Shown here: positions 742 through 13,917 of the stretch, piece after piece
Numbering within the stretch: the stretch's first letter is position 1
Layout: each line of letters starts with the position of its first letter
DNA from: a virus
Reading direction: 5' to 3' (one strand)
IMG/VR virus record: IMGVR_UViG_3300006810_000299
Location: 1 to 27,342 of that record
DNA length: 27,342 nucleotides
Position numbers and translations under genes: made by a program
The notes under the pieces: model-generated
Told to the model about the DNA's origin: nothing
Seen by the model: the letters and a program-made list of their open reading frames with translations, nothing else
The model's database searches: none

Positions 742-3700
742 ATGAGCGTCGTCGAGAAGCATCAGCGCGGTAAACACGATCAGTCCGCTCACGGGGCGTG
801 GGCTAAAAGCGGCGCGATGCGTGCAGGATGGAGCCAACGCTCCAACGACGAGATTCTCGCGGAGTTTCAGGCGCGGTTCCGCAGCATGTACCCGAACGAT
901 CAAGAACACGCGGACAACATGGCTGAGGAGTTCGCTTCGTGGACAGCGAAGTACGACGGCCCGAATAACACGTCGATAACGGTCGAACTTCACAGGTTGG
1001 GTGAGCAGCCTGATCCCGAAACGATGGACACGGTCATGTGGACTGTGGATCGGTTGCAGAAACAGAATCCTGTTCAGGATCTGGAAGTCATGTTCTCGTT
1101 TAGGCCGTTCCGTGACGAGGCACAGTTCGTGCCCGCAGAGGCCGAGGGATTCGTTATCCGGGGTGAAAAGAAAATCAACCTGCAACCTGATTTGGCGCGA
1201 GACATTGGCATGTCGGCGGTGCGCGACGATGGGCATTTCATGCCTGCAGCGGCGAACGTGTCGAAGGTTGAGTATTACTTGACGCACGAGTACGGGCACG
1301 TTCGCGATACCCGAAACAGAGGTCAGGTGAATGATGACCGTTACCGTCTGGCCGACCTTGAAACAAGCGGCTACGGCGCAACTAACGAATACGAGAAATA
1401 CGCTGAGGCATACACCGAGTGGTCACTGACAAACGGTGAAACAACAAACATCACCGCTCAAACATATGCCGATAAGTATTTTTGGGCAGAGAACTTGGAG
1501 AAGGCTATGGATGATGATGACGAGATGGAGCGGATCATCATCGTTGACACGTTCGACGCTGCCAACCCACCATCGGCGAGGCCGTACCCGAAAACACCCG
1601 AGGCTGCGACGATCAAAGTCGCCCCCGGGTTGAAGCCGATCCTGAAGCATCAGCGCGGCAAGCATGATCAAAAGTCACACGGTCGACGTGGCTCGTCGGA
1701 GCGTTCACCGTTCTATGACGAGTTAGAGGAGGAGCAGCGGGAGGCACTTGAATACTTGATGGGTGACCGTCCCTTCCCACCGGGTTACAGCCCCGAGGGT
1801 GTGCCGCCGCCGACGATCACGATAAGCGAATCACTCGGCAACAAAATCCGCTCAGCCCGCAAGAAGATTCGTGAATGGCGTGCCGATCGGGAGCGCCGCG
1901 CTTTGGCTCGGATGACACCCGATGAGTTGTCTGCGTTAGGTGCCGCTAACAGGGCTCGTGAAGCCCTACGGCAAGGGTTCACTCCTGCGATGGCTAAATC
2001 AGTTGATCCGGCGTTGCGGGTGTTGTATCGCGTGTTCGGTGACGTGGTGGAGCCGGAGGTGTGGTTCGCGCTCGTTCAGCATCAGAGCCCGTTAGAGGAG
2101 ATTGACGGGCCGCTCGGGCGGCTGCTGGATGACATGTTGGGTGCCGTGTTGCCGGGGCCTGTGATGATCAAGTTGGCTCCGGGGTTGCGGCCTGTATTGA
2201 AGCATCAGTCCGGTAAACATGATCAGAAGTCGCATGGGACGTGGGCTCGTGGTCGTGCTGGTGAGTTCAGTGAGTGGGGGGATCGTGCTGCGAGGATTCG
2301 GGCTGCTCGGGATGTTGGGCCGGATTTGAGTCGTGTTGCTCGGGTGTTCCAGAGGTCTAAGGATTTTGAGTTGGATGAAGTTATCGAGGAGACGATTCTT
2401 GATAATTATGGGGAGGTAATTTCGGAGGTAGTGGAGGAACGTAAAGAACAGATTCGCTCAATGAGTCAAGAAGAAATAATGAGCGCTTATGGGAGTCCTG
2501 TAGAAAACTTTGTTTCCGCGAGCGTCGCAAACGGTAAATCACGTTCGGAGGCTATTGAGAAGTTCCGTGAAATGCAAATAGCGGATGTGCGACGACAGGT
2601 AGAGGAGCAATGGGTCATTGACTACGACTTAGAGACCCGCTATTCGATAGAAAGGGATCTTGTAGAACGCATCACCCCGGGTCTTGAAGAAATGATGAAC
2701 ATTCGGCATCCGGTGACGATAAATGGTATGCCCGACGAAATTGTTACCGAGGTTACGAATGTCGAAGTTCACGGTCTAGGGGGGCCTGATCCCAAAATAC
2801 TAATCGCAGGCAGCATAAGAAACTCCCAAGGAGAATGGATCGGGGAGATGTTCGAGCGTGAAATCCAATTGTCTGAAACATCACCATCCGGCAAGCCACA
2901 GTTGGAAGCAGAAAACAAACTGCTACGAATCAACGATGAGCGCTATCAACGTCAAGGGTTCGCTACCGCGTTCAACGAACGCACCTACGACATGTACATC
3001 GCCAACGACATTGACACGGTTTTCGTGTACACGGCATGGGAGGGTGGAGCGGTGTGGGCGAAGCGCGGATTCGACTGGAACCCGAACAGGGGGGCCGACA
3101 ACATAAATGTGGCAGCAGATGCCTTGAATTATGTTGCAGATTCCCCTGATGCTTCATCGAAAACTCGTGCGCGAGCCCAACAAATGCTGGATGATATGTC
3201 TGTATCTAGTGGTGTTGACGATGTTGACTTTCCAACACCTATGGAAGTCGTCATGCTGGGATACACGCCGAACGCTTCAACATGGGTTGGGCAGGAAGCG
3301 ATGATGGGTCAGAATTGGTACGGTAAAAAGTTTCTGACACCTGACAATCTGAGTGAAGTGAAGCGACGTAAGGACGAGTTGAAGGTCATTGCCGAGCAAG
3401 ATAGGCAAGCGGCTGGGCAGAAGAAACTGTTCACGTTTACTGAGCAGCCTGCAGCCCGAGGATCAGTTGGCGAGCCTCAGCCTTTGCCCAATATGACGAT
3501 CGAAGAATTGTTGGAGCCCACATTCGGCAGCGTTCCGCGAGTTCGCACACCTGAAGGTGCCGCGAAGTACGGGAAACCGATCGGGGCGCCGATCCGTGCA
3601 GTCGAGAAGAAAATGTCTCGTTGGGACAAACTGCAGGCACAGGCCGAGTTCTACGAAAAATGGCTCGAAGAAACTAACCGGGAGTTGGATGATGATGATC

Positions 3701-3762
3701 CCGAGGTGGAGCGTCAGTTCTATGCCGCTGCCGATGAAGCGATGCCGTGGCTCGTTGACTAA
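742..3762 (+). CDS. Polyvalent multidomain protein: zincin metallopeptidase plus GNAT-like domain
   Basis: A 1006-aa protein whose ATG abuts the previous stop. Three copies of the His-rich motif KHQxGKHDQxxHG (residues 6-18, 302-314, 487-499) divide it into blocks. Block 1 (about 20-290) holds HEYGH at 182-186 and a later NEYEKYAEAY (215-224), a zinc-metallopeptidase HExxH arrangement with E218 or E222 as the likely third ligand. Block 2 (315-486) is charged and unrecognised. Block 3 (500-1006) contains RQGFATAF (737-744) followed by GGAVWAKRGFDW, the pattern of a GNAT acyltransferase fold, then a C-terminal tail with RTPEGAAKYGKPIGAPI. Two longer repeats, IK(V/L)APGL(K/R)P, lead into motifs 2 and 3. 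Such mixtures of enzyme domains match the 'polyvalent protein' concept of phage proteins delivered with the DNA. Delivery is inferred. The region around 2400-2520 has clearly lower GC than its flanks, suggesting domain acquisition. Confidence 0.85.
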   Translation: MSVVEKHQRGKHDQSAHGAWAKSGAMRAGWSQRSNDEILAEFQARFRSMYPNDQEHADNMAEEFASWTAKYDGPNNTSITVELHRLGEQPDPETMDTVMWTVDRLQKQNPVQDLEVMFSFRPFRDEAQFVPAEAEGFVIRGEKKINLQPDLARDIGMSAVRDDGHFMPAAANVSKVEYYLTHEYGHVRDTRNRGQVNDDRYRLADLETSGYGATNEYEKYAEAYTEWSLTNGETTNITAQTYADKYFWAENLEKAMDDDDEMERIIIVDTFDAANPPSARPYPKTPEAATIKVAPGLKPILKHQRGKHDQKSHGRRGSSERSPFYDELEEEQREALEYLMGDRPFPPGYSPEGVPPPTITISESLGNKIRSARKKIREWRADRERRALARMTPDELSALGAANRAREALRQGFTPAMAKSVDPALRVLYRVFGDVVEPEVWFALVQHQSPLEEIDGPLGRLLDDMLGAVLPGPVMIKLAPGLRPVLKHQSGKHDQKSHGTWARGRAGEFSEWGDRAARIRAARDVGPDLSRVARVFQRSKDFELDEVIEETILDNYGEVISEVVEERKEQIRSMSQEEIMSAYGSPVENFVSASVANGKSRSEAIEKFREMQIADVRRQVEEQWVIDYDLETRYSIERDLVERITPGLEEMMNIRHPVTINGMPDEIVTEVTNVEVHGLGGPDPKILIAGSIRNSQGEWIGEMFEREIQLSETSPSGKPQLEAENKLLRINDERYQRQGFATAFNERTYDMYIANDIDTVFVYTAWEGGAVWAKRGFDWNPNRGADNINVAADALNYVADSPDASSKTRARAQQMLDDMSVSSGVDDVDFPTPMEVVMLGYTPNASTWVGQEAMMGQNWYGKKFLTPDNLSEVKRRKDELKVIAEQDRQAAGQKKLFTFTEQPAARGSVGEPQPLPNMTIEELLEPTFGSVPRVRTPEGAAKYGKPIGAPIRAVEKKMSRWDKLQAQAEFYEKWLEETNRELDDDDPEVERQFYAAADEAMPWLVD
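757..795 (+). repeat. His-rich inter-domain motif, copy 1 (KHQRGKHDQSAHG)
   Basis: This copy lies at the extreme N-terminus of the 1006-aa protein (residues 6-18), directly before the metallopeptidase block, and is followed by AWAKSG. Being at the N-terminus shows that the motif is a header of a block and not only a linker between two. Confidence 0.9.
1645..1683 (+). repeat. His-rich inter-domain motif, copy 2 (KHQRGKHDQKSHG)
   Basis: Residues 302-314 of the 1006-aa protein. It is preceded by IKVAPGLKPIL and followed by RRG. The leading APGL segment is shared with copy 3, so the repeated unit here is about 25 residues and probably arose by duplication. Confidence 0.9.
2200..2238 (+). repeat. 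His-rich inter-domain motif, copy 3 (KHQSGKHDQKSHG)
   Basis: Residues 487-499 of the 1006-aa protein, preceded by IKLAPGLRPVL and followed by TWARG. It marks the start of the GNAT-containing block. The DNA falls to about 42-43% GC some 160 bases further on. Confidence 0.9.
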
Positions 3763-3823
3763 CGATGTTCCCCGTAAGTGGGGGTTGGCGGTAACCTAAA
3801 GGGACGATACCCGGACTCTGAGG

Positions 3824-6800
3824 ATGCCCGTGACTGATACCGCAACCCGCCTCACGGGTCTCGCAGATGAAGACCTCATCGCCCTGCATGAGCGGCTGGA
3901 CCGTCAAGGCGCTGTCGATTCTGCCGTGATCGAGGCGCATCATCTTGCGGCGACCGAGTTGCTGAAGCGTGGCCTAACCCACGGTCACACCGATGACGAG
4001 TGGGTTGAGGCCGTCATTCTCGTCGAGAAGGCTCTCGTGAGTTCGGCTGATGAGATCGAAGCGCCGGATGGGTTTGAGAAAGCGTGGGGTGAGTCTCTCG
4101 CGCACGGCGGCAGCGTGTCCGTTTTGTTGACTACCGACGGATATGTGTTGAAGGCCGATCCGACGGTGTCGGATGTTCATCAGGACACGATCATGGGTGG
4201 TGGCCGGAAGAAGCCCCGCCGCATCATGCCGCCTGCCGACATGGAGAAGACGATCCGTGAGGAGGGCGGCAAGTTCGTCGTCTATTCGGAGGACTTGAAG
4301 CGGAAGTTCGGGACGTATGACACTCGGACTGAGGCTGAGGAGCGGCTACGTCAGATCGAGCGGTTCAGTAAGGCCGACGATTATGCGGTGCCGCGTGCTG
4401 TCCAGTCGGCGGCTAAGCAAGCGTTGAAGTGGATCGCAGACGGTAAGGCTGGTGGCGGTTTCACGAGTGTGGGCCGTAATCGTGCCCGCCAGTTGGCTGA
4501 TGGCGGCACCGTGTCTCGTGCGACGCTGGTGAAGATGCGGGCCTATTTTGCCCGTCATATCGTCGACAAGGATGCGAAGGGTTGGGGGGATAAGAGCAAG
4601 CCGACGCCGGGGATGGTCGCGTGGTATGCGTGGGGTGGTGACCCGGGTCGGGCGTGGGCTAACCGGGTGTTGGGGGATGTTGAGAAGGCTTATGACCCTG
4701 AGGAAGCCCTGACGGACAAAGAGAAGGCCCTGTATGCGGCATATGAGGCTGTAGCGGGTCAGTACGGGGAGTTTACGCCTGCCGAGGCTCATTACATGGG
4801 CGGTGACGATAACCCGTGGAACGCGCAGGGCATGAATTGCGCGAATTGTGTGTTCTTCGAGGGCGGTGGCGGCTGCGAGATCCTGACGGAGCAGGTGGAG
4901 CCTGAGGGGTTGTGTAAGTTGTGGGTGATTCCGCAGGGGTTGATGCGCCACGACGCGCCCGCTGAGAAGGCCGTAGAGGCCCTAGCGAAGTTCACGCTTC
5001 CGGGTGGTGCCACCTATGAGTTCAGTGTCCCCGTGTCGGCTGTGGGGCCGCTGACAGCCGTTCCTGACGTTTCTGTCGCTAAGCATCAGCAGGGTAAGCA
5101 TGATCAGGCCGCTCATGGGCGACGTGGCGGCGTGTCTGTGTCGCCGGAGGTTGCTCAGTCGATCATCGGTCGAGTCCGCGAGCAGGGTGGCCTGAGTGTC
5201 AACATGATCGACGGGTCGGAGCCGCCGGACGGCTACATGGTGGCCCGCACTGAGGGTGTGAAGCCGTCGATCGTCAGTGCTGACGAGTTCTATGGCGCTG
5301 ACACGGGGCCTGCCGCATTGAGTTCATTCTTGAAGGACAACAAGGCCAGTTTAACGGGGGGTGACTACCTTGGGGTTTGGCATGACACGGATAGCGGTAA
5401 TGTATTCCTTGATGTATCGCAAAACGTCAAGGACCGTGCCACTGCTGAGCGGCTCGGTAGTGAACGCAATCAGATCAGTATTTGGGACGTCGTTGAAGGC
5501 AAGGAGATAGCGACAGGTGGCACAGGAGAAATCGCAAAAGCCGATTCAGGCGGTGAAGTTGCCGGATCTGTCGACGATGACGGACGAGGAGATCGACGAG
5601 TTCGCTCAGAGTCTGTGGGAGCAGATCAGTCAACAGTCGTAAAGCACGGCGAACCGGGTCGAGACAAGAACTATCACCGTAAGCATCCGCATGGCCGTGG
5701 TGGCCCCGGCGGTAAGGGTGAGACCGAGGGCAAGGTTTACCGGACCCGTGACCATAAGCGGGCTATTTCTATGCTCGCTCGTGGCGAGAAAGTCATCCTC
5801 GAATCTGATAAAGATGTCAACACGTTCCTCGAAAAACTGCACGACTACGCCAGTGATGCTCGCGAGAAGGGCGAGGATGCGGGCAACCTAGATTTGTGTC
5901 GCGTGTCGGTGCCGGGAACGAACCTGTTCTGCACGGAGTCCCTCGGTGTTCCGCGTATTGAGATGCCGCAGTTGGCGGGTAAACCCGTGAAGGGTTCAGC
6001 GGCGGACAAGATGCCGAAGGACAAGAACGGCGAAGTCAATGTCGGTGAGTTGTTCCGTGAGAAGTTGGAGGCTAAGGGTGTCGATGTTCGTGACACTGAG
6101 GTGCCTGCCGCTTCATTGAAGGCGTCTCAGAATGAATTGAAGGGCGCGAATGTTGCGTTCATGATGAGCCCGAATGGGCAGAAGGTCGTGAATCTGGAAG
6201 ACACCCGCATCTTTGTTTCCTCTGACGGGTATGTGATCGACGGGCATCACCGTTGGGCTGCGAACGTGGGCCTTGATTCCAGCGACGGCAAGTTGGGTGA
6301 CAAGAAGATGAAGGTCACCATGATTGACATGCCGATCAGTGAGGTTTTGGCTGAGGCGAATACGTTCGCTGACGATATTGGTATCGCACCGAAGGCCGCT
6401 AAGTCTGTCGATGGGCAGATGGAGAAGCACAAGGCGGGCAAGGGGCATGATCAGAAAAGCCACGGCGCGTGGGCTAAGGGGGGTGGCGAGCAGTACGGCG
6501 GCTATGAGTTGATCGAACCGGATAACCCGCCTGCTGAGTCGAAGCGTGGCGCTGATTCGATCGCTGCTGCGAAGGCTATGCGGGCGAAGGTCGCTGAGGT
6601 GGAACCGCAGATCACTCGTGACATGATCGACGCCGCGAATAAGCACAAAGCCACGATGGTTGGGTTGAATCATCGGATGAAGTCGGAGAAGTCTCTGGCT
6701 CGCAAGATCGACGATGAGAAGGATCTTGACTTTGGTGGGGATGCTGAGCGTGCGGCAGCGAACATGAACGATGTGGCCCGCTACACGATGGAGTACGACG

Positions 6801-7180
6801 GCGGCGACTACGTCAGTGGCGCTGAGGGCGTGATCAGTGACCTAGAGGGTCAGGGTTATGCGCTGGAAGTGAAGAATTATTGGGCTGATAATGATCCCTA
6901 TCAGGGGATCAACATCGCGGCAGTGCATCCGAATGGGACGCGGTTTGAGTTGCAGTTCCATACGCCTGAGTCGTCGGCGGTGAAGGGTAAGATTCATGAG
7001 CGGTATCAGAAGTACCGTGAGTCGGATGATCCTCGGACACGGTACAAGGAGTACGACGGTATGCGGCGCACGGCTGAGGATGTTCCGGTGCCGGAGCCTC
7101 GTGAGGCGTTGATGGCGATCGGTGAGTTGAAAACGCAGCCGTTCACCCCCCGTCCTGACGCACCCCCGGTTGAGATTTAG
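3824..7180 (+). CDS. Polyvalent multidomain protein: Cys4, ParB-like and RelA/SpoT-like domains
   Basis: An 1118-aa ORF starting at ATG 3824 with GAGG just upstream. Visible blocks in order: an N-terminal helical part; GGKFVVYSEDLKRKFGTYDT (148-167), a short module known from phage head-protease regions; a block with GGGFTSVGRNRARQLADGG and YAWGGD (about 185-290); a four-cysteine module (C339, C342, C351, C364) resembling a HiPIP-like Fe-S or zinc site; a His-rich motif (420-432) and a block ending near 570; a variant motif (607-624) before a ParB-like segment DGYVIDGHHRWAA (801-813); a last motif (868-881) before a RelA/SpoT-like nucleotidyltransferase pattern, RMKSEKSLARK (951-961), KNYW..DPYQGIN and RFELQFHT (1040-1047). 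Such domains could modify host nucleotides or proteins early in infection; that role is inferred. Residues about 570-606 look out of frame, so this may be two ancestral genes joined by an indel or a programmed shift. Confidence 0.8.
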   Translation: MPVTDTATRLTGLADEDLIALHERLDRQGAVDSAVIEAHHLAATELLKRGLTHGHTDDEWVEAVILVEKALVSSADEIEAPDGFEKAWGESLAHGGSVSVLLTTDGYVLKADPTVSDVHQDTIMGGGRKKPRRIMPPADMEKTIREEGGKFVVYSEDLKRKFGTYDTRTEAEERLRQIERFSKADDYAVPRAVQSAAKQALKWIADGKAGGGFTSVGRNRARQLADGGTVSRATLVKMRAYFARHIVDKDAKGWGDKSKPTPGMVAWYAWGGDPGRAWANRVLGDVEKAYDPEEALTDKEKALYAAYEAVAGQYGEFTPAEAHYMGGDDNPWNAQGMNCANCVFFEGGGGCEILTEQVEPEGLCKLWVIPQGLMRHDAPAEKAVEALAKFTLPGGATYEFSVPVSAVGPLTAVPDVSVAKHQQGKHDQAAHGRRGGVSVSPEVAQSIIGRVREQGGLSVNMIDGSEPPDGYMVARTEGVKPSIVSADEFYGADTGPAALSSFLKDNKASLTGGDYLGVWHDTDSGNVFLDVSQNVKDRATAERLGSERNQISIWDVVEGKEIATGGTGEIAKADSGGEVAGSVDDDGRGDRRVRSESVGADQSTVVKHGEPGRDKNYHRKHPHGRGGPGGKGETEGKVYRTRDHKRAISMLARGEKVILESDKDVNTFLEKLHDYASDAREKGEDAGNLDLCRVSVPGTNLFCTESLGVPRIEMPQLAGKPVKGSAADKMPKDKNGEVNVGELFREKLEAKGVDVRDTEVPAASLKASQNELKGANVAFMMSPNGQKVVNLEDTRIFVSSDGYVIDGHHRWAANVGLDSSDGKLGDKKMKVTMIDMPISEVLAEANTFADDIGIAPKAAKSVDGQMEKHKAGKGHDQKSHGAWAKGGGEQYGGYELIEPDNPPAESKRGADSIAAAKAMRAKVAEVEPQITRDMIDAANKHKATMVGLNHRMKSEKSLARKIDDEKDLDFGGDAERAAANMNDVARYTMEYDGGDYVSGAEGVISDLEGQGYALEVKNYWADNDPYQGINIAAVHPNGTRFELQFHTPESSAVKGKIHERYQKYRESDDPRTRYKEYDGMRRTAEDVPVPEPREALMAIGELKTQPFTPRPDAPPVEI
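5081..5119 (+). repeat. His-rich inter-domain motif, copy 4 (KHQQGKHDQAAHG)
   Basis: Residues 420-432 of the 1118-aa protein, followed by RRGG. It separates the four-cysteine module from a block containing PPDGYMVARTEG and NVFLDVSQNVKDRA, which I recall as a recurring domain in actinophage head-region proteins but cannot name with certainty. Confidence 0.9.
5511..5642 (+). other. Better-coding +1 frame inside the 1118-aa ORF
   Basis: In the frame whose codons start at 5511, this stretch reads ...PIQAVKLPDLSTMTDEEIDEF... and ends AQSLWEQISQQS at a TAA (5640-5642). Its codons end almost always in G or C and encode a plausible amphipathic helix. The annotated frame here gives a low-complexity Gly/Asp/Arg/Ser string using CGA, GGA, TCA, ACA and GTA. 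Removing one A from the AAAA run at 5536-5539 joins the upstream domain to this ending. A downstream gene could then start at GTG 5615 in the original frame. The cause may be a real indel fusing two genes, a programmed +1 shift or a sequencing error. Confidence 0.6.
5642..5695 (+). repeat. Divergent His-rich motif (KHGEPGRDKNYHRKHPHG)
   Basis: Residues 607-624 of the 1118-aa protein. It keeps the opening KH, the internal charged/His content and the closing HG followed by RGG, but is five residues longer than the standard motif. It heads the ParB-like block and coincides with the return to the good coding frame. Confidence 0.6.
6425..6466 (+). repeat. His-rich inter-domain motif, copy 5 (KHKAGKGHDQKSHG)
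   Basis: Residues 868-881 of the 1118-aa protein, with one extra glycine relative to the other copies, followed by AWAKGG. It separates the ParB-like block from the RelA/SpoT-like block. Confidence 0.85.
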
Positions 7181-7218: not shown

Positions 7219-8085
7219 ATGATGCCACAAAGGTATTTCATCAAAACAGACAAGGCTGACGCTCCCCTAACCCTGTTCCGGTTCTCCATCGACGATTCCA
7301 CTGAGCAAATCTTCGAGCAGGAATGGCAGAACGGCTGGGAAGACACCGCACGGCTCGGCGGCTATCTCATCAGCGGTGATCCAAGGATCGTCGAGATCCC
7401 CCGGGAGAAAGCCGAAGAATTATTCCCTGACTCCGTCACGGCTGAAAACGCCACACTCGTCAGCAAGCAGGTCGCCGAGCGGATGTTCACCCTCGGCCCC
7501 ATGTACATCCCTAACGTCAAAGACGCGCACGCCGAATGGACAGACCCTGAGGAGTTGCAGAAAGCCGTATGGGAGTACGTCAAGAAAGGCGACCGCCGTA
7601 TCCGCCTCCAACACGACAAGAGCGTCGTTGCTGGTGAATGGCTAGAGATCATGGCGTGGCCGTATGAGGTCGAAGCCCCCATCATCATGAAAGACGCCTC
7701 ACAGGGAAGCATGAAGTTCCCCGCTAACACGGTATTCCTTGGCGTGAAGTGGGAACCTTGGGCTTGGCAGATGATCAAGGAAGGCAAACTGCGTGGGTAC
7801 TCGATTGGTGGGCGTGCCGAGCGGCTATTGGCGGATCTTCCTGAGGAGTACGTTGGGAAGGCTCAGGCTCCGTTCGAGGACGCTATTCGAGTCGAGGCCG
7901 ATGATGTCGCACCTCCACCAATCGTGGCAGAAGCAGATTTGGAGGATAGAATCGCAGTGGCGGTGGCTGAGGCGATGAAGTCCATCAACCCCGTCGTGAA
8001 TGTCGTCATGCCGGAGGAAAAACCCAAAGTACGTCGAGTTGAGCGGGATGAAAATGGCAACATCCTGCGCGTAATTGAGGAGTAG
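7219..8085 (+). CDS. Head maturation protease, XkdF-like
   Basis: A 288-aa protein. The central part, MYIPNVKDAHAEWTDPEEL, then RIRLQHDKS (His132), then LRGYSIGGRAE (Ser195), follows the layout of the XkdF-type phage serine protease family: a P-N-x-x-D-A-H element, a catalytic His in a QHD context, and a Ser in Y-S-I-G-G. Such proteases cleave scaffold and capsid precursors during prohead maturation. The C-terminal third is acidic with PPP and a positively charged end, typical of self-assembling prohead proteases. ATGs at 7219 and 7222 are both possible, because the AGGAG at 7211-7215 fits either; 7222 has the more usual spacing. It lies upstream of the scaffold and capsid genes as expected, although an unrelated cassette intervenes. 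The protease may also process the motif-bearing giants upstream; that is speculation. Confidence 0.8.
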   Translation: MMPQRYFIKTDKADAPLTLFRFSIDDSTEQIFEQEWQNGWEDTARLGGYLISGDPRIVEIPREKAEELFPDSVTAENATLVSKQVAERMFTLGPMYIPNVKDAHAEWTDPEELQKAVWEYVKKGDRRIRLQHDKSVVAGEWLEIMAWPYEVEAPIIMKDASQGSMKFPANTVFLGVKWEPWAWQMIKEGKLRGYSIGGRAERLLADLPEEYVGKAQAPFEDAIRVEADDVAPPPIVAEADLEDRIAVAVAEAMKSINPVVNVVMPEEKPKVRRVERDENGNILRVIEE

Positions 8086-8087
8086 TA

Positions 8088-8444
8088 ATGGCAGGTTTGG
8101 TTGATGATGGCAAGCATCTCATGCTTGATGGGTTCGGCACTGGGGTGACCTTCGTCAGCCTGCACACTGCTGACCCCGGAGCCAGCGCTTCGGCTGAGGT
8201 TACTGGCGGCGCTTACACCCGTGAGGCTGCCTCGTGGGCTGCGGCAGCATCAGGCAGCGTATCCACGAGCGCATCTATCGTTTTCGATGTCCCCGGCTCC
8301 ACGACAATCACTCACCTCGGGTATTGGTCGGCGAGCACCTCTGGCACTTTCTATGGATCACGCGCTCTGGACACATCACAGACCTACGCGACCGCAGGCA
8401 CTTACACGATTAGTTCAGGGAATATCACTGAAACCATAACCTGA
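8088..8444 (+). CDS. Small beta-rich head or tail structural protein
   Basis: A 118-aa protein starting 3 bases after the protease stop. It contains VSLHTADPG near residue 24, a Ser/Ala/Thr-rich middle, and regularly alternating hydrophobic residues typical of a beta-sandwich. Proteins of this 'LHTADPG' type are common in actinobacteriophage structural regions and are usually annotated as minor tail or head-decorating proteins; the exact location on the virion is not known to me. The stop codon overlaps the next start (TGATG), so the two are translationally coupled and probably act together, for example as a small anchoring domain with the Gly-rich protein that follows. Confidence 0.65.
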   Translation: MAGLVDDGKHLMLDGFGTGVTFVSLHTADPGASASAEVTGGAYTREAASWAAAASGSVSTSASIVFDVPGSTTITHLGYWSASTSGTFYGSRALDTSQTYATAGTYTISSGNITETIT

Positions 8445-9415
8445 TGGCTACGGGGTTATTCACCCTTGATAGCGCGACTCTCGGTGTCCTTGACGAAAAT
8501 GTTTTGGGCGGTGAGGGCACCGGCTTCATCGTCGGAAGTTCATCTTCTAGCGGCAGCGTTCTAGGTGCTGTCGGCTATGCAGGATCTGCGTCAGGAAGCG
8601 TTGGGTCCGACGGATCTGTCACGGGAATTGTCGGCTACGTTGGGTCTACTGCAGGATCACAGGGATCGGCTGGGGATTCCACAGGTGTAGCGGGCTTCGC
8701 AGGCTCTGTTGCGGGTTCTACAACATCTACGGGGGCGAATACTGGGTCACCGGGCCTATCGGGTGCGGCTGATGGTGAATCCACATCTACGGGTAATTGT
8801 TCCGGGCAGCCGGGACTTTCCGGTTCGAGTTTGGGTGTTGTCGCGAGTTCAGGGACCGCGAGTGGTAATCCTGCATTGAGTGGCTTGATAAGTGGCTCTA
8901 ATGATGCAGCGGGCAGTGTCACTGGTGGCGAGGGCAACATTGGCACGGTCACAGGATCGGTGGCGAGTAGTGGCGATTCGGCTGGCTCGCCGGGGCTGTT
9001 TGGTGTCGTCGGTGGTATCACAAGTGATACCGGCTCGGTGTCGGGTGTTGAGGGGAACACGGGTGGAGCGACAGGCTCGCAGAGTTCGATTGGCGCTGTC
9101 ACGGGCTCTAAGGGTGCTGCAGGTTCCGTCTCGGGTGTCAGTGTTTCGTCGGGTTCGATCTTCACGACGTCAGATAAGTCTGGCTCCGTTGATGGGGTCA
9201 GTGTGTCGACGGGTTCGGTCACTGGGAGCGGTCCTGCTCCTACCCCTTCGCCAGTTATCGGTGGCGGCTCTATGCCGATCATCGTGGCTGTTCCGCAGGT
9301 GTCCCCTTTCGGGTTCGTGTGGGCGCAGTCCGACAGTGGCGGCTCAGTCGGTGGATCGAAGCGGGTTCGTGAGGATGAAGACGTCGAGTTGCTGACACTG
9401 CTCGGTGTCCTATGA
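8444..9415 (+). CDS. Gly/Ser-rich 20-residue-repeat fibre-like protein
   Basis: A 323-aa protein overlapping the previous stop by one base. Residues 1-37 form an N-terminal head (MATGLFTLDSATLGVLDEN...). Residues 38-257 are eleven exact 20-residue units with glycines at fixed positions (4, 7, 10, 14 and 20 of each unit in most copies). Residues 258-323 form a Pro-rich linker, a hydrophobic MPIIVAVPQVSPFGFVW segment and an acidic tail. The glycine spacing is not Gly-X-Y collagen; a stacked polyglycine-type or beta-solenoid fibre is more likely. The same unit recurs at the end of the distal tail protein at 25193-26602, implying an adhesive or decorating role. No signal peptide is seen. The function is inferred from composition only. 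Confidence 0.75.
   Translation: MATGLFTLDSATLGVLDENVLGGEGTGFIVGSSSSSGSVLGAVGYAGSASGSVGSDGSVTGIVGYVGSTAGSQGSAGDSTGVAGFAGSVAGSTTSTGANTGSPGLSGAADGESTSTGNCSGQPGLSGSSLGVVASSGTASGNPALSGLISGSNDAAGSVTGGEGNIGTVTGSVASSGDSAGSPGLFGVVGGITSDTGSVSGVEGNTGGATGSQSSIGAVTGSKGAAGSVSGVSVSSGSIFTTSDKSGSVDGVSVSTGSVTGSGPAPTPSPVIGGGSMPIIVAVPQVSPFGFVWAQSDSGGSVGGSKRVREDEDVELLTLLGVL
8555..9214 (+). repeat. Eleven tandem 60-bp / 20-aa repeats
   Basis: Each unit follows the protein pattern SVTGxxGxxGSxxGSxxSxG. The period is exactly 20 codons with no indels over eleven units. Copies 6 and 11 have lost some of the fixed glycines, while copies 1-3 share a GYxGS or GFAGS segment. The DNA of the copies has diverged, so this is an old, selected array and not a recent expansion. 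Confidence 0.85.
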
Positions 9416-12936: not shown

Positions 12937-13917
12937 ATGCCACAGCCAACAATCAGTGACGTCCATGTTGACGCCATTCTGACGAACATCTCCGTCGCCT
13001 ACATGCAAAAGGCGGAGAACATGATCGCAGATAAGGTGTTCCCGGTCGTCCCCGTTGATAAGAAGTCGAACAAGTATTTCACCTATGACAAGGCGGATTG
13101 GTTCCGTGACGAGGCTCAGCGCCGCGCACCGGGCACCGAGTCTGCTGGTGGTGGATACAACCTGTCGACTGACACCTACGCGGCTGACGTGTGGGCGTTC
13201 CACAAGGACGTCGACGATCAGACCGTTGCGAACGCTGACACTCCGCTCAACCCGCTGCGTGAGGCCGCTGAGTTCGTTACCTCTCGCCTGCTGCTTCGTC
13301 GTGAGGTTCAGTTCATCACTGACTTCATGACTTCCGGCGTGTGGAACAGCGAAGTGACTGGTGTTGCTGCGAGCCCCGTTTCGGGTACGTCTTTCTATCA
13401 GTGGAGCGACTACAGCAACTCTGATCCGATCGAGGACATCGAAGCGGCGAAGGAAGACATTCTTTCGACCACGGGTTACGAGGGCAACACTCTCGTTCTC
13501 GGGTATCAGACGTTCCGCCAGTTGAAGAACCACCCCGACATCGTTGATCGCTACAAGTACACCACTTCTAGCGTCATCACTGAGGAGATGATGGCTCGCC
13601 TGTTCGGCGTCGATCGCATCCTCGTCGCGAAGTCGGTTCGTAATTCGGCTGCGGAAGGCTTGACCGCCTCCTACGGGTTCAACTTCGGTAAGGCCGCGTG
13701 CCTGCTGCACGTTGCACCCAACCCGGGTCTGATGACTCCGTCCGCTGGCTACATCTTCGCGTGGACTGGCGTGTCGGGTGGGCTCGGTTCCACCATCGGA
13801 ACTTCTCAGTTCCGCATGGAAAGCCTGAAGGCTGCCCGCGTTGAGGCTGAGGTCGCGTTCGACAACAAGGTTGTCGCCAACGATCTCGGTTACTTCTTCG
13901 CAAGCGCCGTCGCCTAG
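12937..13917 (+). CDS. Major capsid protein
   Basis: A 326-aa protein, with AAGGAGA upstream and an ATG at 12937. It opens DVHVDAILTNISVAYMQ and has AENMIADKVFPVVPVDKKSN, an N-terminal pattern of phage major capsid proteins of the HK97 fold family (GpE-like group). Further features are FTYDKADWFRDEAQRRAPG, VDDQTVANADTPLNPLREAA, a long spine helix region (LLLRREVQFITDFM) and GYQTFRQLKNHPDIVDRYKY. The C-terminal part has the beta-rich FRMESLKAARVEAEVAFDNK. Size, position between decoration and head fiber genes, and even C/G-ending codons all fit an abundant structural protein. It shows no sign of truncation. Confidence 0.88.
   Translation: MPQPTISDVHVDAILTNISVAYMQKAENMIADKVFPVVPVDKKSNKYFTYDKADWFRDEAQRRAPGTESAGGGYNLSTDTYAADVWAFHKDVDDQTVANADTPLNPLREAAEFVTSRLLLRREVQFITDFMTSGVWNSEVTGVAASPVSGTSFYQWSDYSNSDPIEDIEAAKEDILSTTGYEGNTLVLGYQTFRQLKNHPDIVDRYKYTTSSVITEEMMARLFGVDRILVAKSVRNSAAEGLTASYGFNFGKAACLLHVAPNPGLMTPSAGYIFAWTGVSGGLGSTIGTSQFRMESLKAARVEAEVAFDNKVVANDLGYFFASAVA

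Follow-up and report, generated by a model that had tools for sequence, protein, structure and literature searches.

That phages inject effector proteins is well established, and the way in which heads select diverse cargoes has been detailed mainly for the internal proteins of T4-like phages. In T4, a short peptide at the N-terminus, the capsid-targeting sequence, marks Alt and the internal proteins as cargo of the head. Fusions of MuF to RelA have been described, as have polyvalent proteins that are injected (PMC3482391, PMC5512222, PMC5576092). The closest described systems are the Apk2 MuF polymorphic toxins of S. pneumoniae, M. haemolytica, P. multocida and B. caccae prophages, which are head-region proteins with a C-terminal small alarmone synthetase (SAS) domain and whose biochemistry and immunity have already been described (PMC12226406, PMC11699363). 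Apk2tox, studied from M. haemolytica and S. pneumoniae prophages, is a toxic enzyme that produces (p)ppApp, and the gene that directly follows it encodes IapK, an immunity protein of 68-72 amino acids (PMC12226406). Here, we analysed a 27,342-nt stretch of DNA from an uncultivated phage (IMG/VR record IMGVR_UViG_3300006810_000299), hereafter the window, in which a 1118 amino acid open reading frame (ORF) at 3824..7180 (+ strand, as are all window features given below) ends in a SAS domain. Taking the whole explanation together, we think it probable that this domain is an active-site-intact alarmone synthetase toxin of Apk2 type and that it and the product of the next gene are a toxin-immunity pair of Apk2 kind, carried in the head as tagged cargo.

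The initial annotation had read positions 6647-7177 as a RelA/SpoT-like nucleotidyltransferase domain at the end of a phage head-region protein, and both the domain and the label held up. The domain is complete (approximately residues 910-1095 of the ORF) and was recovered by tblastn, with MuF-type SAS head proteins of Mannheimia and Streptococcus phages as the closest phage proteins (E=4e-23), by phmmer, which matched the crystallised exported synthetase SaEAS (PDB 8VX3, E=2e-15), and by a profile from 25 viral relatives, which matched 8VX3 with E=1.8e-32 and Tas1 with E=0.004. The AlphaFold2 (AF2) model has a mean pLDDT of 88.6, its first 19 residues, which hold the peptide tag described below, being disordered. 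In Foldseek this model retrieved 8VX3 first (E=5e-12, TMt 0.81), followed by Tas1 (6OX6) and RelP/SAS structures, and every one of the leading matches was a RelA/SpoT-type synthetase. The folded domain spans approximately 6551..7108, so that the start first proposed lay about 30 amino acids too late. The motifs RMKSEKSLARK (residues 951-961), DVARYT (983-988), KNYWADNDPYQGIN and RFELQFHT follow one another in the ORF, the three that had been noted initially being in the order given, and no hydrolase domain precedes them: HD_4 (PF13328) has no match anywhere in the window record. Although the median pairwise identity among the 25 relatives is only 38%, all of them keep R951 and K953 of Syn1 (6674..6682), D983 and R986 of Syn2 (6770..6781), Y1026 of the YQGIN acceptor loop in Syn3 (6899..6913) and E1042 of the E-x-Q-x-H-T motif in Syn4 (6947..6964). 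Neither a foreign fold nor a loss of the metal-binding residues, the two outcomes that would have spoken against the initial proposal, was found, and the ATP and acceptor-loop residues are likewise present. D983 stands opposite an alanine of 8VX3 in the alignment and, because the crystallised SaEAS is a D121A mutant (PMC12691689), we take D983 as the same catalytic aspartate as SaEAS D121. Why would such a domain go unnoticed? The Pfam RelA_SpoT match to the ORF remains below threshold (13.4 vs 27 bits), so plain Pfam annotation would miss it.

Among characterised proteins, the Apk2 toxins of temperate phages, which are fused to MuF and make (p)ppApp, are nearest to the domain, and not the tRNA-modifying toxSAS; the domain is around 30-40% identical to the phage relatives found. 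SaEAS is the best structural match and shares the Syn motifs, but it is Sec-secreted and has no immunity protein. A synthetase from a Nitrososphaera provirus was rejected as a member of the same clade (hidden Markov model E 0.05). In this provirus (Pro-Nvie1, 2786-5013), an archaeal portal with a NPYHDERGRFAS motif at its end overlaps a gene that encodes a canonical synthetase domain of RelA/SpoT type, and a 72 amino acid ORF of immunity size comes next; this is another head-region SAS, of separate lineage. Separately, two SAS matches lie near opposite ends of the 70.6-kb contig IMGVR_UViG_3300027971_000047, as either two copies or a circularity artefact.

As in the Apk2 phages, an IapK-type domain is encoded directly downstream of the toxin, here as the N-terminal part of a protease gene (7219..8085). 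This gene opens with an IapK-homologous domain of about 75 amino acids (7219..7443), followed by a prohead protease domain of XkdF type (PF14550, E=6e-13, 7453..7824). When a downstream-domain profile built without any IapK was used to score all ORFs of at least 40 amino acids in 15 phage loci (n=2075), ranks 1-6 were IapK genes and 8/8 IapK genes of Apk2 phages fell in the top 9, with weak individual E-values (0.18-3.6). In the reverse search with an IapK profile, the top six ranks went to genes that follow viral SAS domains. Compared with each other, the two profiles scored 28.7, and none of 200 column-shuffled decoys exceeded 16.3. The domain was present behind SAS in 26/26 loci that had been selected by the tag and had enough sequence, and nowhere else in those loci; 22 of the 26 rows had built the profile, which makes their recovery, but not the absence elsewhere, a matter of construction. 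Because these first loci had been chosen by tag, we also retrieved loci by SAS alone, using two closer sequence sets since the 15-row SAS alignment was too divergent for the collection scan. This gave 90 further loci (63 non-redundant at 95%, some records overlapping the earlier set), and in 59/59 non-redundant loci with downstream sequence the IapK-like domain lay behind SAS, always fused to the protease. In the 26 tag-selected loci it was fused to XkdF in 18, stood alone just behind SAS in four (L016, L068, L071, L102) and preceded another tagged module just behind SAS in four (an ADP-ribosyltransferase in L120; L065, L054, L052). Since it occurs in these three contexts, the domain goes with the toxin and not with the protease; in L068 it is the tag-SAS protein that carries the protease. 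The AF2 model of the domain has a pLDDT of 91.6, and neither sequence nor Foldseek gave a convincing resemblance to a solved structure in the PDB. No description of an immunity-protease fusion was found in a search of the open-access literature.

A second feature that, like the immunity domain, the initial annotation had overlooked is that the SAS domain is preceded by a short tag, KHx2GxHDQx2HGxWA, and not by MuF, and is one cargo among several of a peptide-tag system. The tag immediately ahead of SAS is KHKAGKGHDQKSHG(AWAKGG) (6425..6466), and the window holds four further exact copies of KHx2GxHDQx2HG (chance expectation 0.00). A tag scan of IMG/VR returned at least 119 stretches, and the tag-selected loci were drawn from the matches listed; in total, at least 440 tag copies (long and short forms) were found in at least 121 viral loci, with both synonymous codons in use at the invariant residues. 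Among the matches listed, at least 60 amino acids follow the tag in 397/400 cases and 125 tags lie near a protein N-terminus. In 34 whole records all long-form tags are on one strand, and the reversed-pattern control gave none. The tagged modules match ADP-ribosyltransferase, DUF3626, Zeta toxin, SprT-like, GNAT and other families, with no PADLOC defence families among them. The tag lies 10-37 amino acids ahead of SAS in 24/29 SAS domains of the tag-selected loci. Two records of about 62 kb (G002 and G016, the records of L003 and L053) hold 17-19 long-form tags each; in G002 the tags are spread over some 16 kb that runs through the ends of the record and makes up about one fourth of the genome.

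Outside these viral records the tag is scarce. In 84,980 prokaryote genomes the pattern matched six stretches, which we rejected as chance because five of them, re-read with the motif regular expression, gave short or out-of-context frames and no tagged cargo protein. A tblastn search of 50,697 phage records returned no match, its sensitivity being limited for so short a query, and a motif scan of the head regions of Ottawa, Salgado, Kovu, ValentiniPuff, DSL-LC01, CRP-831 and Jera found none. A search of the open-access literature for the tag strings yielded no paper.

The loci retrieved by SAS alone also revealed a second tag. Of the 59 with upstream sequence, 50 carry the strict tag shortly upstream of SAS and six more a degenerate one, while the remaining three have NPNHDx2GRFA at the tag position. 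A scan for NPNHDx2GRFA gave 52 stretches, and this second tag was detected by the same tblastn method that missed the first one in phage records. The two tags never share a locus (0/261, from sets of 119, 90 and 52 loci), two of these sets having been drawn with one of the patterns each, by regular expressions of unequal breadth. In L283, the orthologous ParB-SAS protein has the second tag in place of the first at both positions. The simplest reading of such concerted switching without mixing is a trans-acting, phage-specific tag reader. Two NPNHD-type tags lie within the protein that is annotated as the prohead protease in Caudoviricetes sp. ctUhy936 (L285, 5515-6792).

How could phages load and arm an effector cargo? 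We propose that effector modules are arranged in a row, each led by its tag, with SAS as one of them, and that the tagged modules would probably be loaded into the prohead and released with the DNA into the next host. There, SAS would transfer pyrophosphate from ATP onto adenine and/or guanine nucleotides, which may lead to ATP depletion and to a stop of growth or macromolecular synthesis. The producer cell would be shielded by the IapK-type domain joined to the XkdF prohead protease, and the toxin would be armed when this fusion is lost during head maturation. Of this picture, computation shows the SAS fold, the intact catalytic residues, the homology and strict linkage of the immunity domain, the recurrence of the tag and its concerted switching, whereas the activity of the enzyme, its product, packaging, injection and arming are predictions. 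More tentatively, and with the balance of probability against it, the single tag type per phage (HDQ- or NPNHD-type) might be an address code, read by a head assembly factor that loads and possibly cleaves a whole effector arsenal, the loss of protease-borne immunity at maturation arming the toxin.

Several points weigh against the proposal of a tagged, Apk2-like head toxin. The whole mechanism is a prediction from sequences and models. Some SAS domains of the group have no tag (L093, L028, L102), the window yielded no MuF gene, and the second Apk2 immunity gene, the hydrolase Aph1, was not found there, HD_4 having no match in the window. The pairwise similarity behind the IapK link is weak (hhalign probability 68-86%), the link being persuasive mainly through ranking and position. 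Also, acceptor specificity cannot be read from the sequence, since SaEAS uses both purines (PMC12691689). With respect to Aph1, the SAS-selected loci gave no match to its hidden Markov model either. Small HD_4 alarmone-hydrolase-like genes occur in loci of tag phages (L055 6965-7483, L104 792-1310, L048 164-667, L074 4694-5197, L064 4730-5368, L084 49-783), where SAS was not seen in the fetched stretch; these are possibly counter-alarmone genes.

Other explanations are less probable. Tyrosine integrase (PF00589) was found in none of 33 related tag records, the window record not being among them, and serine recombinase (PF00239) in none of 18; the records may be fragments, and several are about 61-62 kb. 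Because of these absences the tag phages may be virulent, unlike the known MuF-toxin phages (PMC5576092). For a virulent phage an outright arrest of the host would be costly, and few copies of the enzyme would reach it, so that SAS might be a non-toxic, moderate alarmone source that tunes early-infection host metabolism in favour of the phage. We find this unlikely, as a dedicated immunity domain has been kept throughout, which is what one expects of a toxin, and as its relatives Apk2 and SaEAS show high toxicity inside the cytoplasm (PMC12226406, PMC12691689). Alternatively, SAS and IapK could be a docking pair, in which tagged SAS takes the fused IapK and protease into the prohead and is toxic only secondarily or no longer. 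The frequency of the protease fusion (18/26 and 59/59 loci) and the protease fused to the tag-SAS protein of L068 would fit, but the catalytic residues are all invariant and IapK exists without protease, alone or with other tagged modules, which leaves this idea only a slim chance.

Little credence can likewise be given to the view that the KH..HDQ..HG stretch is a mere flexible linker or a gene-fusion scar with no reader. The stretch is indeed disordered in the model and followed by Gly-rich sequence, but near-invariance over at least 440 copies with varying synonymous codons, positions near N-termini as well as between domains, and a concerted swap to NPNHDx2GRFA with no mixing in 261 loci are at odds with it. 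The least probable alternative concerns the substrate. The initial annotation had noted that toxic small synthetases make alarmones or pyrophosphorylate tRNA, and had proposed that one brought in with the phage DNA might arrest host translation or keep out superinfecting phages; the fold and the location, consistent with head cargo, agree with its general idea, whereas tRNA modification is less supported because (p)ppApp/(p)ppGpp are the products of Apk2 and SaEAS, the closest characterised relatives. A translation-blocking tRNA 3'-CCA pyrophosphokinase of the FaRel2/CapRel kind belongs to the same superfamily, and CapRel (7ZTB) is among the fold-search matches, but the nucleotide synthetases Apk2, SaEAS and Tas1 rank well above it by sequence and structure.

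If the Apk2-like reading is right, Apk2-type alarmone toxins would extend to phages without sign of lysogeny, and tagged cargo with fused immunity suggests how phages could load and arm effectors. Immunity placed on the maturation protease suggests a simple, testable switch by which a toxin of the virion would stay silent in the producer and act in the recipient. A recognisable tag would also allow capsid cargo to be predicted straight from metagenomes, including many unannotated effectors. The T4 capsid-targeting sequence is likewise a short cargo mark, but of unrelated sequence, and here the mark is reiterated between the modules of long proteins. The arrangement is of the polyvalent type, with several effector-like domains per polypeptide in a late-gene neighbourhood. 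Polyvalent proteins are likewise multi-domain, lie near late genes, include ART, metallopeptidase, ParB and RelA/SpoT domains and have been proposed to be injected; compared with the part of that work considered here, a recurrent per-module tag and the immunity-protease fusion are seen only in the present loci (Iyer et al. 2017, PMC5512222). With respect to the Apk2 phages, the differences are a ParB-like/tag array instead of MuF as N-terminal partner, the fusion of immunity to the prohead protease, and the lack of Aph1 and of a detected integrase.

Within the window, SAS is the only firmly identified effector domain, the other modules being recognised by motif or PHROG. The SAS-bearing ORF consists of an N-terminal domain, a tag (KHQQGKHDQAAHG, 5081..5119), a phrog_17808-like domain, a degenerate tag seen by eye (KHGEPGRDKNYHRKHPHG, 5642..5695), a putative ParB/Srx-like domain (5891..6376), the last tag and SAS. 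The ParB/Srx-like class is suggested by the motif VIDGHHRWAAN and weak tblastn matches, and the domain is part of phrog_2859. The ORF has no match to Phage_Mu_F; in the close relative L001, MuF is on a separate tagged gene. Upstream, a tagged multi-module protein of 1006 amino acids (742..3762) carries three tags, KHQRGKHDQSAHG (757..795, five residues past the start), KHQRGKHDQKSHG (1645..1683) and KHQSGKHDQKSHG (2200..2238), and its motifs suggest a putative metallopeptidase (HEYGHVRD) and a GNAT-like module (RYQRQGFATAF), neither with a Pfam match. The placement in a head-gene region is given by the PF14550 protease gene at 7219 and the major head protein (phrog_1005, 12937..13917), whose nearest relatives are in Arthrobacter phages (61%). 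Pfam matches of the SAS-bearing ORF to HIPIP, DUF5334 and other families were sub-threshold and discarded. The HIPIP match falls on a Cys-rich stretch at 4817-4934, NCANCVFFEGGGGCEILTEQVEPEGLCKLW; in the Actinomycetia phage DSL-LC01 (L136), a protein annotated as high potential iron-sulfur adjoins the head proteases. Finally, between the protease and capsid genes the window encodes a Gly/Ser-rich repetitive protein of 323 amino acids (8444-9415) without family matches.

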